Shown: positions 4,611 to 35,694 of the stretch, one piece after another
How the letters are laid out: the number at the start of each line of letters is the position of its first letter
Numbering within the stretch: position 1 is the stretch's first letter
NCBI RefSeq assembly: GCF_003855155.1
Contig: NZ_CP034073.1
Coordinates: 4,650,001 to 4,714,000, forward strand
DNA from: Shewanella psychromarinicola
Lineage (GTDB): Bacteria > Pseudomonadota > Gammaproteobacteria > Enterobacterales > Shewanellaceae
Direction of reading: 5' to 3'
Length of the DNA stretch: 64,000 nt
The notes under the pieces: model-generated
Databases searched by the model: none
Told to the model about the DNA's origin: nothing
Seen by the model: only the letters and a program-made list of their open reading frames with translations
Made by a program: the position numbers and the translations under genes

Positions 4611-4705
4611 CCATAACGATGATCATTGATGGAATGATTATTGGGTCATTTATGCGGGGTCAGCAATATCAATAATGTGCTGATTAATATTCTCTGCCAG
4701 CGTAC

Positions 4706-5095
4706 TGCGCTACTAGGACGCTGCGCTACTAGGACGCTGCGCTGCTAGATGCTATAAAATCATAGCAGCGAAGCGATACTAGCAGGACGTAGTCCGCCCT
4801 AGCAGCGAAGCGATACTAGCAGGACGTAGTCCGCCCTAGCAGCGAAGCGATACTAGCAGGACGTAGTCCGCCCTAGCAGCGAAGCGATACTAGCAGGACG
4901 TAGTCCGCCCTAGCAGCGAAGCGATACTAGCAGGACGTAGTCCGCCCTAGCAGCGAAGCGATACTAGCAGGACGTAGTCCGCCCTAGCAGCGAAGCGATA
5001 CTAGCAGGACGCAGTCCGCCCTAGCAGCGAAGCGATACTAGCAGGACGCAGTCCGCCCTAGCAGCGAAGCGACCCTAGCAAGACGCAGTCCACCC
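4706..5095. repeat. Composite tandem repeat array (2.5 x 16 bp inverted units, hairpin, 9 x 37 bp units)
   Basis: Bases 4706-4737 hold two 16-bp units TGCGCTACTAGGACGC. A hairpin head follows, with arms CGCTGCTA (4740-4747) and TAGCAGCG (4763-4770) around an AT-rich loop containing CTATAAAATC. From 4763 to 5095 there are nine head-to-tail 37-bp units. Each unit has module A, TAGCAGCGAAGCGA, then ACTAGCA, then module B, GGACGTAGTCCGCCC; the last units read GGACGCAGTCC. Module B contains a small GGAC/GTCC hairpin. The final unit is the most diverged. There are no spacers, so this is not CRISPR. It fills the gap between the receptor gene and the rimK operon, and the same modules recur at 34363-34606. 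Confidence 0.95.
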
Positions 5096-5104
5096 TGCTG
5101 TTTA

Positions 5105-29042: not shown

Positions 29043-29062
29043 GGTCCCAAATCAACATTGTG

Positions 29063-29122
29063 ATTAACATTATAATTAACATTATAATTAACATTATAAT
29101 TAACATTATAATTAACATTATA
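29063..29122. repeat. Five 12-bp tandem repeats upstream of fliL
   Basis: Five perfect head-to-tail copies of ATTAACATTATA run from 29063 to 29122, in the 138-base gap between fliK and fliL. The tract begins only 21 bases before the fliL start codon, so copy number changes would alter the fliL leader. Confidence 0.95.
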
Positions 29123-29180
29123 ATTTAGCTAAATAACTCGCTATTGTTACGAAGTCATATTGTTGCCATAGGTTACCTGC

Positions 29181-31119: not shown

Positions 31120-31401
31120 GTCGATAAATGGTCATTAACAAGGTCATTAGCAAGGTCATTAGCAAGGTCATTAGCAAGGTCATTAGCAAGGTCATTAGCA
31201 AGGTCATTAGCAAGGTCATTAGCAAGGTCATTAGCAAGGTCATTAGCAAGGTCATTAGCAAGTCGATAAATGGTCATTAACAAGATTGTTAGCAAGATCA
31301 TTAGCAAGGTCATTAGCAAGGTCATTAGCAAGGTCATTAGCAAGGTCATTAGCAAGTCGATAAATGGTCATTAACAAGATTGTTAGCAAGGTCATTAGCA
31401 A
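31120..31401. repeat. 12-bp tandem repeat array between fliJ and fliK with higher-order blocks
   Basis: The basic unit is GGTCATTAGCAA. Three blocks each open with GTCGATAAAT followed by the variant GGTCATTAACAA, at 31120, 31262 and 31356. Block 1 has 11 units in all, block 2 has seven (with variants GATTGTTAGCAA and GATCATTAGCAA), and block 3 has three. The second and third blocks share the same variant order, which points to block-level duplication on top of unit slippage. The array ends ten bases from the fliJ stop. Open frames through it exist only because 12 is divisible by three. Confidence 0.95.
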
Positions 31402-31410
31402 GACAAAGGG

Positions 31411-31862: not shown

Positions 31863-33203
31863 TTATCCCTGACACTGCGCGGCTATTTGAGTCAACATGA
31901 CTCGACTCTCTTCAAACGTCACTGGTTCTTTAAATCCCTGACGCAAAAAGGCATTCATTGCAGGTTGTAAGCGGATCGCATTATCAATCCTAGGATCGCT
32001 GCCCTGAGAGTAGGCACCAATTGAAATAAGGTCTCGATTCTGTTGATACAGAGAATACATCTGTTTAACTCTGCGCATGGCTTCTAGGTGTTCATCACTG
32101 ATCACCATGGGTGCTACGCGGCTAATCGATGCTTCCACATCGATGGCAGGATAATGACCCGAATCGGCAAGTTGACGAGATAACACAATGTGGCCATCTA
32201 AAATAGCGCGAGAAGCATCAGCAATGGGATCTTGTTGATCATCACCTTCAGTTAAAACAGTGTAAAAAGCCGTAATAGAACCTTGCCCAGCACCGCCATT
32301 ACCCGCCCGTTCAACCAAACGCGGTAACTTAGCGAATACGGAAGGGGGATATCCTTTGGTTGCTGGCGGCTCTCCTACCGCAAGAGCCACTTCGCGTTGT
32401 GCTTGTGCATAACGCGTCAAACTGTCCATTAGCAACAAAACATCGTAACCTAAATCTCTGAAATACTCAGCAATACGAGTGGATGTTTCACAAGCCCGTA
32501 AGCGCATTAAGGGAGACGTATCTGCCGGTGCGGCCACAACAACTGCGCGCGCACGACCTTCTTTACCCAAAATTTCTTCAATAAATTCTTTAACTTCACG
32601 ACCACGTTCGCCCACTAAACCCACCACAATAATGTCGGCTTTAGAACCTCGCGTCATCATGCCAAGCAGCACACTTTTACCCACACCAGAACCGGCAAAC
32701 AAGCCCATACGCTGGCCTTTACCGACCGTTAACATCGAATTGATTGCACGAACGCCGACATCTAAAGGTTCGGTAATCGCTCGTCGAGATAATGGGTTAA
32801 TATAAGGGCCATGACGTGAAGCATATTGATCAGTATTAAGCGGTCCTAAACCGTCTAATGGCAAGCCACTACCGTCTAACACTCTGCCTAATAATGATAA
32901 GCCAACATTTAATCCAGATTGTTCACCTAACGGCTTAACGCGCGCGCCGGGCAACACCCCTCTGAGTTCTTCAATAGGCATTAAGTACAGTAATGTGTCA
33001 TCAAACCCGATAACCTCTGCCACCAAATCACCCACCATGGTTTCGATAGAGCATAAACTACCAATAGGTGCACGACATCCGGTCGCCTCGAGCGTTAAAC
33101 CAACAACCCTAACTAACTGCCCGCTTGCCACTGGTCGCAGCGGTAATACGTGTTTATGATGCACAGCAAATTTGTTAAGTAGTCGATGTTGACGAGTGCT
33201 CAT
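31863..33203 (-). CDS. fliI: Flagellum-specific ATPase FliI
   Basis: A 446-residue ATPase related to the F1 beta subunit. Motifs are [17 protein letters not shown] (Walker A), [32 protein letters not shown] (Walker B region) and the C-terminal MLTQIAAQC. The start is the ATG at 33203, preceded by AAGGAA; longer in-frame starts reach into fliH and lack a ribosome site. It overlaps the fliH 3' end by 29 bases. Confidence 0.96.
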
Positions 33204-34308
33204 CGGTATTTCCTTGGGATAGGTCTTTCGTCTGTTGCGAAGTATCATCCGCTTTATCTGTTGGGACAGTATCAGCTTGTACACTTGTGTCGAGCGTTGC
33301 ACTTGTCTGTGGATCCACAATGGGATCCGGCGCATCAATGTGTTGAGTCACCGGTTCAGCATCCGTATCAACAGTATGACTTTGGCTATTCTGGTCATTA
33401 TCAGCACGGTTTGTACTGTCGATGGTGTCGGTAAGCTCAGGGGGTTGTTGATGTTCACTCAAATTATCGACTGAAGTGGTTTGATATTGTGGATGAGTTG
33501 CTTTTTGTTGTTGCACATTCTTAGCTAACTGATTCGACTGGGCGTCTAATTCACTAAACACTTGGTTAATACGTTGCTCAACACGTAAATCGACAGATGA
33601 ACGCACACTTTCAATGATACAGTCACCATTTGATAATGACGGATCGATATCAATTTGCCACTGATTTTTGTCCAGTTGTTCCGCACTGTAACATTGGTTA
33701 ACGATTTCAGCATCGGCTTGATTCAAGCGCAATTTAACCCGTTGTTCTTTCAGTGGCAGCGCATCAACACCTTGACGTAATGCCAATAATATATGTTCTG
33801 GATGCGTCTTAAGTTCATGGCCAATCACCGACTTGGCTAAGCTTATTGTCATTGCCAACAGTTCAGCTTCAATTTCGTTATCTAATATAGAGAGTGGCCG
33901 CTCAAATTGGTTAATAATTTGATTAAGTTGCTCAACAAGTTCATTAACTTTCGTTTGCCCGGCCTCCAATCCTTGCTGCTCGCCTTGAGCGAACCCTTGT
34001 TGGTGACCTTGCTCCAGTCCCTCTAAGCGCCCTTGCTCTAATCCTTGTTGATGGCCTTCTTGTTTGCCTTGCTCAAGCCCTTCTTGCTCCGCGGCTGCGC
34101 GAATGTCTTCAATTTGCGCCATGGTCGGTGGTGCCATGGACTTCTCGGCACCAGCAACTGGAGTAGGCGTGTGCGCCTCAGAAAACTTACCAAACATGTT
34201 TGACGGTTCTAAACTACTATCTTTAGTCATATCAGGTAATTGCCAATGCCTAAATGCTTGCTCATCATCCGTATTGAGCGTATTTTTAGGCGATTTTGAT
34301 TCTGGCAT
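33175..34308 (-). CDS. fliH: Flagellar export protein FliH, with a glycine-repeat segment and long acidic tail
   Basis: A 377-residue regulator of FliI. Residues about 73-118 are a run of Glu/Gln-rich GxxxG-type repeats (units such as QGLEQG and EGLEQG), the known helix-packing repeat of FliH but longer than usual. The conserved domain (about 120-255) includes [20 protein letters not shown] and the C-terminal [14 protein letters not shown]. About 110 further residues, Thr/Asp/Gln/Ser-rich and acidic, form a disordered tail; E. coli FliH is only 228 residues. Its 3' end overlaps fliI. The repeat array at 34363-34606 separates it from fliG. Confidence 0.92.
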
Positions 34309-34362
34309 AATTCATCACTTATGTTGTTGAAAACATTGTTCAAAAGCAAGGTTCAAGGACCT

Positions 34363-34606
34363 AGGGCGGACTGCGTCCTTCGAGGGCGCTTCGCTGCTAG
34401 ATTCTATAAAATCTTAGTAGCGAAGCGTCCTAGCAGCAAAGCGTCCTAGCAGCGAAGCGTCCTAGCAGCAAAGCGTCCTAGCAGCAAAGCGTCCTAGCAG
34501 CAAAGCGTCCTAGCAGCAAAGCGTCCTAGCAGCAAAGCGTCCTAGCAGCAAAGCGTCCTAGCAGCGAAGCGTCCTAGCAGCGAAGCGTCCTAGCAGCGAA
34601 GCAGCG
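34363..34606. repeat. 16-bp tandem repeat array with hairpin head between fliG and fliH
   Basis: From 34363 the sequence AGGGCGGACTGCGTCC is the complement of module B of the 4.7-5.1 kb array. A hairpin spans 34387-34427: CGCTTCGCTGCTAGATT pairs with the complementary right arm around CTATAA with one mismatch and one bulge. From 34415 to 34606 run twelve 16-bp units of the form TAGCAGCAAAGCGTCC or TAGCAGCGAAGCGTCC. The array occupies most of the 330-base gap between fliG and fliH, inside the fliEFGHIJ operon. Confidence 0.95.
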
Positions 34607-34638
34607 CTCTCGGTAATGGCTTGGATATAGATACTGAG

Positions 34639-35694
34639 TTATAAGAACTCGTCGCCACCAGTTCCGCCTAACATGATTTCACCGCTGTCACTGAGGCGCC
34701 GAGCAATAGCCAGAATCTCTTTTTGTGCCACTTCTACTTCACTAATACGAATTGGCCCCATGGCTTCTAAGTCGTCACGAAGTAATTCTGCTGCACGTTT
34801 AGACATATTACCCAGAATTTTCTCTTTCAAACCTTCATCAGCACCTTTAAGTGCTTTCATCAGAATATCTTGCTGCACTTCACGTAACAAGGCTTGAACG
34901 CCACGGTCATCAACGTCAATTAAGTTCTCAAATACAAACATCATGTCTTGTATTTGTTGCGCCATTTCTTCGTCAGACTCACGCATGGTTTCCATTATCT
35001 GGCTCTCAACACCCGTATCGAGATAGTTCATAATATTGGCAGCCGCTTTTAGGCCGCCCATTTTGGCTGCTTGCGTTCCACCTTGACCCGCGAATTGTTT
35101 TTCCATAATGTCATTCAACTCTTGCAAAGCCGCTGGCTGAACCTCTTCAAGGTTAGCAATACGCATCATCAAATCTAAACGGGTATTTTCTGGAAACTGG
35201 CTAAAAATCTCAGCGGCTTGATCTGGGTCTAAATATGACAACACAATGGTTTGAATTTGCGGATGTTCGTTTTGGATAATCGTCGCCACTTGGCGGGCAT
35301 CCATCCATTTTAACGAATCAAGCCCTTTAGCCCCGCTGCCCATGATAATTTGTTCAATCAAGTTGCCCGCTTTATCTTCACCTAACGCCGCGGTTAACGC
35401 TTTACGGACGAATTCTTCGCTGTTAAAGCCAATTGACGAGAATTTTTGGATATCATCTAAGAATAACTTGTGAACCCCAATGACTTTATCTTGACCAAAC
35501 TCATCCATCGCCGCCATCGCCATACCCACTTTTTGCACCTGCTTAGGTTCTAAGTGTTTTAAAATTGACGCCGCATCCGCTTCATTCAAACTGAGCAGTA
35601 AAATGGCAGTTTTCTCAACACCAGTAACCGAATCCAGGTCAAATCCCGTAGCTTTTTCTGCTTTTTCTACGCTTTCTTTTTTTTCATTAGCCAT
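34639..35694 (-). CDS. fliG: Flagellar motor switch protein FliG
   Basis: A 351-residue rotor protein. Conserved stretches include VEKTAILLLSLNEADAA (about 26-42, written V/EKTAILLLS), QIQTIVLSYLDPDQAAEIF with the EHPQ motif before it (about 148-170), and the C-terminal torque helix DDLEAMGPIRISEVEVAQKE. The charged residues of FliG-C that meet MotA/PomA are present. The N-terminus is extended by a short basic/acidic tail. Its start overlaps the fliF stop by eight bases. Confidence 0.96.
   Translation of the reverse strand: MANEKKESVEKAEKATGFDLDSVTGVEKTAILLLSLNEADAASILKHLEPKQVQKVGMAMAAMDEFGQDKVIGVHKLFLDDIQKFSSIGFNSEEFVRKALTAALGEDKAGNLIEQIIMGSGAKGLDSLKWMDARQVATIIQNEHPQIQTIVLSYLDPDQAAEIFSQFPENTRLDLMMRIANLEEVQPAALQELNDIMEKQFAGQGGTQAAKMGGLKAAANIMNYLDTGVESQIMETMRESDEEMAQQIQDMMFVFENLIDVDDRGVQALLREVQQDILMKALKGADEGLKEKILGNMSKRAAELLRDDLEAMGPIRISEVEVAQKEILAIARRLSDSGEIMLGGTGGDEFL

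Follow-up and report, generated by a model that had tools for sequence, protein, structure and literature searches.

REPs are common in bacteria and their mode of spread is still argued over. The BOX elements of Streptococcus pneumoniae are modular and vary in how many middle units they contain, as does the repeat family described here, and differ from it in being built of other modules without a CTAG joint or GNA loop. The sections of PMC8266576 that deal with group 3 REPs describe a Marinomonas REP with a 5-bp palindrome two bases from its tag and a Stenotrophomonas REP with a 3-nt loop, note that loop positions matter in this group, and propose that the cleavage dinucleotide CT pairs with the AG of the tag; in one system of that study binding largely tolerates mutations of the tag. 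GTAG-1 and GTAG-2 are reported from S. sediminis, S. halifaxensis, S. pealeana, S. woodyi and S. piezotolerans in the main text of PMC3733652, which does not mention a CTAG tag. Searches of the open-licence PMC literature, supplements aside, listed no description of Shewanella repeats that combine CTAG joints with GNA loops.

The repeat that we describe here from Shewanella psychromarinicola is REP-like in plan, with CTAG in place of the GTAG or CGTC tag. It has the short palindromic unit (mostly 12-20 nt plus CTAG), the extragenic copies and the inverted doublet around a spacer that characterise REPs and REPINs, and it lacks a GTAG or CGTC tag at one end and a RAYT gene flanked by its repeats; because both the tag and a linked enzyme were looked for and neither was present we do not file it in the GTAG/RAYT family. 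Short perfect stems, small loops and a tetranucleotide tag bring it close to the GTAG REPs and REPtrons, group 3 especially, as these are portrayed in the sections of PMC8266576 cited above, but unlike GTAG REPtrons the Shewanella family has CTAG on both sides of the module and no linked RAYT. With the REPINs of Pseudomonas fluorescens SBW25, in the part of PMC3116915 that concerns their arrangement, it shares inverted doublets around a spacer, extragenic position and some tandem clusters, but here the spacer (the head) is strongly conserved, single modules and not only doublets are multiplied and no RAYT lies beside the clusters. It is also REP-like without a dedicated transposase, as the main text of PMC3733652 reports for CGTC REPs, which differ according to the same text in their tag, in having 8-9 bp stems and 4-5 nt loops and in occurring mostly as head-to-head dimers with grouped elements rare.

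The DNA analysed here (the window) is a stretch of 64,000 nucleotides, positions 4,650,001-4,714,000 within one 5,134,849-base contig, and contains two arrays of this family, one of them in the 330-bp gap between fliG and fliH. Their features and the two adjoining genes, in window coordinates, are as follows.

4705..4748, minus strand: first array, 16-bp TNC units to the left of its head (TRF period 16, 2.8 copies)
4735..4775, plus strand: first array, head with arms (core at genome 4654745-4654761)
4763..5096, plus strand: first array, 37-bp units (TRF period 37, 9.0 copies)
33175..34308, minus strand: intact fliH, downstream of the array in transcription (NCBIfam NF004267, 367.8 bits, cut-off 293)
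34361..34384, minus strand: inverted copy of module B (TNC orientation) on the left side of the head, with stem GGAC/GTCC and, on the minus strand, loop GCA
34387..34427, plus strand: head with two arms forming a long hairpin in the fliG-fliH gap (core CTAGATTCTATAAAATC at 34397-34413)
34415..34602, plus strand: tandem array of 16-bp CTAG-jointed units (TRF period 16, 11.8 copies, 97% match)
34639..35694, minus strand: intact fliG, upstream of the array in transcription (NCBIfam TIGR00207, 320.5 bits, cut-off 226.7)

The initial annotation had noticed in the fliG-fliH gap the head of the first array, an inverted module B and a 16-bp unit complementary at 14 of 16 bases to units of the first array, and all three observations are borne out. 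The heads at 34387-34427 and 4735-4775 are identical at 37 of 41 bases, the next-best ungapped match in the window reaching 24 of 41; the inverted module at 34361-34384 is 92% complementary to the first-array units 5001-5024 and 5038-5061; and, at 15 of 16 positions in its GAA form or 14 of 16 in its AAA form, the reverse-complemented 16-bp unit of the fliG-fliH array agrees with those to the left of the first head. Four of the 11 units in the fliG-fliH array have the loop GAA and seven AAA, and the 37-bp unit of the first array is made of a 17-bp and a 20-bp CTAG module with GNA loops (CTAG spacing 20+17). Within the window AGCRAAGCG occurs 22 times, compared with a mean of 1.31 and a largest count of 6 in 100 shuffles.

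The initial annotation had read the two loci, alike in their composite structure, as a dispersed element, and the genome-wide counts support this. The head CTAGATNCTATAAAATC has 100 matches in the genome at up to two mismatches (reversed-pattern control 1) and CTAGCAGCRAAGCG has 284 at up to one mismatch (reversed-pattern control 6). A slightly wider pattern, applied to stretches taken around the matches, gave 105 heads, 102 of them outside ORFs of 80 aa or more; the other three are almost without surrounding modules and may be chance matches. Reduction by hand, leaving out these three, left about 59 places, of which by a simple ORF rule 21 are convergent, 29 co-directional, 6 divergent and 3 of unknown arrangement. 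The heads show no replichore bias (17 plus and 15 minus on the right, 16 plus and 11 minus on the left) and cluster at 2.43-2.45 Mb; this cluster brought integron attC sites into consideration, and the ORFs there are presumably ordinary chromosomal genes, going by their translations. A few arrays without a head also exist, for example at the loci L032, L043 and L050. At another locus of the same genome (L097, 1372885-1373374) CTAG arrays with four heads directly follow a stretch that recurs many times in relatives at up to 99% identity and in which a ribosomal RNA operon probably ends.

Outside this genome the named matches to the head pattern came from Shewanella in 16 of 16 stretches, own-genome records perhaps lying outside that scan. 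Modules were found in 53 of 117 Shewanella genomes, with 199 copies in the host genome and 41 and 33 in the next two, as counted with CTAGCAGCGNAGCG, which fits the host's own module type and may undercount others. Among 16 genomes from other genera of the same order three had one head match each (with one mismatch) and the reversed control matched in five, so that these hits are at chance level and were set aside. One query of the fliG-fliH array against plasmids and one of the first array against phages returned no match.

The head marks a point of inversion for the modules around it. Within 150 bp upstream of heads we counted 242 TNC against 22 GNA motifs and within 150 bp downstream 279 GNA against 102 TNC, the downstream TNC coming at least partly from neighbouring heads. 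Modules lie within 45 bp of 104 distinct heads in 93 cases upstream, 44 downstream and 42 on both sides. This is the layout of a REPIN whose spacer is conserved, and fewer than half of the heads show it in full over such a short distance.

In order to describe the modules themselves we looked at the spacing of CTAG and at the hairpins between the joints. The 664 CTAG-to-CTAG spacers include 168, 96, 110, 40 and 38 of 12, 13, 16, 18 and 20 nt respectively, and in CTAG-dense stretches 219 of 415 triloop hairpins with a stem of at least 4 pairs have the loop C(GAA)G, C(GCA)G or C(GTA)G, whereas elsewhere in the sampled DNA C(GAA)G makes up 29 of 1,098; tandem copies inflate both the spacer and the hairpin counts. 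When distinct modules only are considered, 53 of 79 triloop hairpins (stem of at least 3) in the host genome have a GNA loop, with shuffled sequence giving 2.9 GNA and 20.2 other loops (23.1), and in relatives, whose loci were chosen for matching the family and are not an independent sample, there are 29 GNA and 32 other loops, with 2.1 and 14.8 after shuffling. The usual module reads CTAG, two bases, stem, GNA, stem, and the stems vary from module to module (GGAC, GTGAC, GACC, CGC, CAGC and GCC among others). In 154 distinct modules centred on GNA the second stem pair is Watson-Crick in 134 (shuffled mean 68.7, maximum 82) and the third in 76 (shuffled mean 37.0, maximum 49), while sliding the partner as a control gave 4 to 30 for the second pair and 9 to 50 for the third. 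The fourth pair is unsupported, the slid control (90) exceeding the true count (53 of 153), so that co-variation is supported for the inner pairs only. Arrays at three loci of other Shewanella (L173, L174 and L176) use extra modules, namely runs of CTAG spaced by three bases and a long module AAGGACGAAGTCCGCTCTC..GCGAG..GCGAGTTC.

Over 17 arrays the tandem periods are 7, 16, 20, 37, 38, 39, 47, 61, 66 and 68 bp and are sums of CTAG-module lengths (16, 20, 17+20, 17+22, 16+7+24, 22+7+20+17 and others); the array detector required a repeated CTAG spacing, and a separate TRF run gives the same periods. The earlier proposal that the element can expand in two unit lengths thus holds as far as lengthening is concerned, the number of unit lengths being larger than two. 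Multiplication of the AAA unit at fliG-fliH means that lengthening does not need the GNA loop, and slippage or unequal recombination is its likely cause.

Comparison with relatives, all of them other species, shows sites that are empty, short or long. Neither head nor module was found within 600 bp after fliG in any of the 29 relatives whose loci were examined, these being the closest of 116 with a FliG; the FliG of the relative G102 is 94% identical to that of the host. The empty site that the initial annotation had suggested looking for at the fliG-fliH junction is found as an absence of the head in other species, the exact insertion edges being unrecovered. In one relative an 11-base piece CTAGCAGCGAA follows fliG (L138) and was left out of the module count, and in another (G060, locus L132) the gap is 416 bp long and holds a different, longer insertion with inverted sequence, so the fliG-fliH gap seems to accept inserts.

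At other loci, an own array of 821 bp (1383269-1384089) corresponds in six relatives to 16, 19, 100, 253, 272 and 275 bp between matching flanks, with no modules in any of the six. A MITE of a DDE transposon would have terminal inverted repeats with a target duplication; no duplication was readable at the sole empty site with near flanks, and the CTAG flanking the modules could be read as one. All six relatives compared have a counterpart of the array at 1385708 in the same position and with other modules, in degraded form in G094, and the array at 1381953 has one likewise in all five relatives in which both flanks were matched; the longest of the seven arrays compared at 1385708 belongs to G041, a relative whose genome is one contig with 41 module copies and lacks any Y1 match. 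The 37-bp unit of the own array at 1897 is present 17 times, and the S. frigidimarina record (L062) has at that place the head and one module. The distance between the flanks of the window's first array is about 2.2 to 2.4 kb in three relatives, which rules it out as a clean empty site. The case that had been named against the dispersed element, unrelated sequence at both loci in related strains and no other copies in the genome, is thus found in part: sequence in relatives is unrelated at fliG-fliH and differently laid out at the first array, but about 100 other heads are present genome-wide.

Folded as single-stranded DNA the stretch 34361-34430, which includes the head, is more stable than its shuffles (z -5.5 on the plus strand, -5.0 on the minus strand) and the tandem parts fold worse than theirs (z +2.7 to +4.2). 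The GNA loop is known for unusually stable DNA mini-hairpins, GCGAAGC being reported to melt at up to 78 C in the part of PMC4686876 that treats these loops. The energy model that we used shows no such advantage for GCGAAGC; energy models favour the GNA strand by 0.4 kcal/mol in five of nine modules and give no advantage or the reverse in the other four. As the loop that is kept is the one that stabilises DNA, conservation probably acts at the level of DNA and not RNA.

The position of the fliG-fliH copy raises the question as to whether it serves the operon. The array had been placed inside fliEFGHIJ, with a possible effect on fliHIJ expression or RNA processing, and the gene run is confirmed by NCBIfam, which names fliJ, fliI, fliH, fliG, fliF and fliE, each over a cut-off, with fliG and fliH intact by length and family match. 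Two 12-bp tandem repeats lie nearby, about 23 copies of GGTCATTAGCAA in the gap beside fliJ (31130-31402 of the window), with stops in all three frames of the minus strand, and one at 29050-29125. A regulatory element acting between fliG and fliH to terminate, cleave or stabilise the transcript would fit the place of the array within this run and the strong hairpin that the head region forms on both DNA strands; we nevertheless consider it very unlikely, as the head is missing from this junction in 29 of 29 relatives, RNA of the gap folds no better than its shuffles (z +2.18), a terminator scan of the gap found no terminator-like site, and heads in co-directional gaps sit 15 times on the strand of the genes and 14 times on the opposite one, ignoring gene direction. 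An Rfam search of 34300-34700 gave nothing above the gathering score, its two microRNA hits being weak and falling far short of the cut-off (E 0.45 and 0.48). An effect on fliHIJ may still exist and gains no support from the fold or the terminator scan, and the fli-operon copy is most likely a tolerated passenger. The probability of chance similarity or an assembly artefact is close to nil: although assemblies can miscount tandem repeats, and exact unit numbers would need reads, the reversed-pattern and shuffle controls lie far below the observed counts, modules recur among Shewanella genomes and common loci carry them in independent assemblies, by which this reading is refuted for the family. 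Also improbable, if less so, is an ordinary GTAG REP family moved in trans by a RAYT or IS200-type transposase of the host genome. The genome does contain 11 Y1_Tnp matches, including a 232-aa protein whose best NCBIfam match is a REP-associated tyrosine transposase, below cut-off (69.1 against 80 bits), but the tag of the family is CTAG, and the gene for this protein (L076, 1456-2154) is flanked instead by GGGGTCAGAGTAAA repeats, as are the relatives' loci L180, L181 and L187, resembling the TIRtrons described in the main text of PMC3733652, where the TIRtron motif is given as GGGGWSAS. A REP-associated transposase, which the initial annotation had proposed to search for, was not found linked to the repeat: the 19 inspected Y1 loci (10 of the 11 own and all nine found in ten relatives) include none with a neighbouring head and one with modules, two in number. 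Six of the 11 own matches (L069-L073 and L075) carry one or two internal stops, and one more is a fragment with a stop. Y1_Tnp matches occur in 68 of the 117 genomes and do not track the number of modules, being present in 20 of the 29 genomes that have at least five CTAGCAGCGNAGCG copies and in 48 of the 88 others (Fisher p 0.20).

On balance we lean towards a REP-like CTAG family that likely spread, in the case of fliG-fliH, as a folded single-stranded doublet and was likely lengthened at its CTAG joints. The modules are inverted repeats around a GNA loop and stand back to back around a common head, and the copy would have reached the gap in folded single-stranded form through an enzyme acting from elsewhere that may recognise CTAG together with the mini-hairpin. 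Our favoured guess is an HUH-type enzyme, since the CT cleavage step and the AG guide bases that have been put forward for other REPs are both present within CTAG. Lengthening in place likely came about by slippage or unequal crossing-over between CTAG joints. The empty sites in relatives, the conserved head, the kept loop and the resemblance to those group 3 REPs covered in the cited sections of PMC8266576 favour such a single-strand route. It is weakened by the absence of a replichore bias, which a lagging-strand route could show, by the lack of a linked enzyme and by the poor folding of the tandem parts. Further points against the reading as a whole are that a GNA module lies within 45 bp downstream of only 44 of the 104 distinct heads, that non-GNA loops are as many as GNA loops in relatives (32 to 29), that the fourth stem pair loses to its slid control, that the insertion edges at fliG-fliH are unrecovered and that energy models withhold an advantage from the GNA strand in four of nine modules. 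The strongest rival holds that nothing transposes: replication slippage, template switching and gene conversion between CTAG microhomologies, provoked by the head hairpin, would alone create the modules and relocate them. We judge this unlikely while giving it appreciable weight, for the periods are sums of module lengths, the AAA unit is multiplied, nine of the 29 module-rich genomes have no Y1_Tnp match at all and such a genome, G041, holds the longest array at 1385708; against this, whole heads with arms at about 59 places are hard to obtain from slippage alone, as is an 821-bp array at a site that in six relatives measures 16 to 275 bp and is free of modules.

Beyond the spread of this one copy, we tentatively raise as possible, if doubtful, that the family is a third super-family of REPs, CTAG-tagged and without a linked transposase, in which only a shape is copied, namely the CTAG joint with a DNA mini-hairpin closed by a GNA triloop. 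Were this true, the CTAG joint would be both guide and cut site, modules could be cut out, swapped and stacked like links, and at the same old loci each Shewanella species would get a set of modules peculiar to it. The stems of the family change and its loop and joint are kept, and its sites are empty, short or long among comparable species. As some genomes hold many copies without any Y1 match, Shewanella offers a natural test of whether the spread of REPs needs a RAYT.
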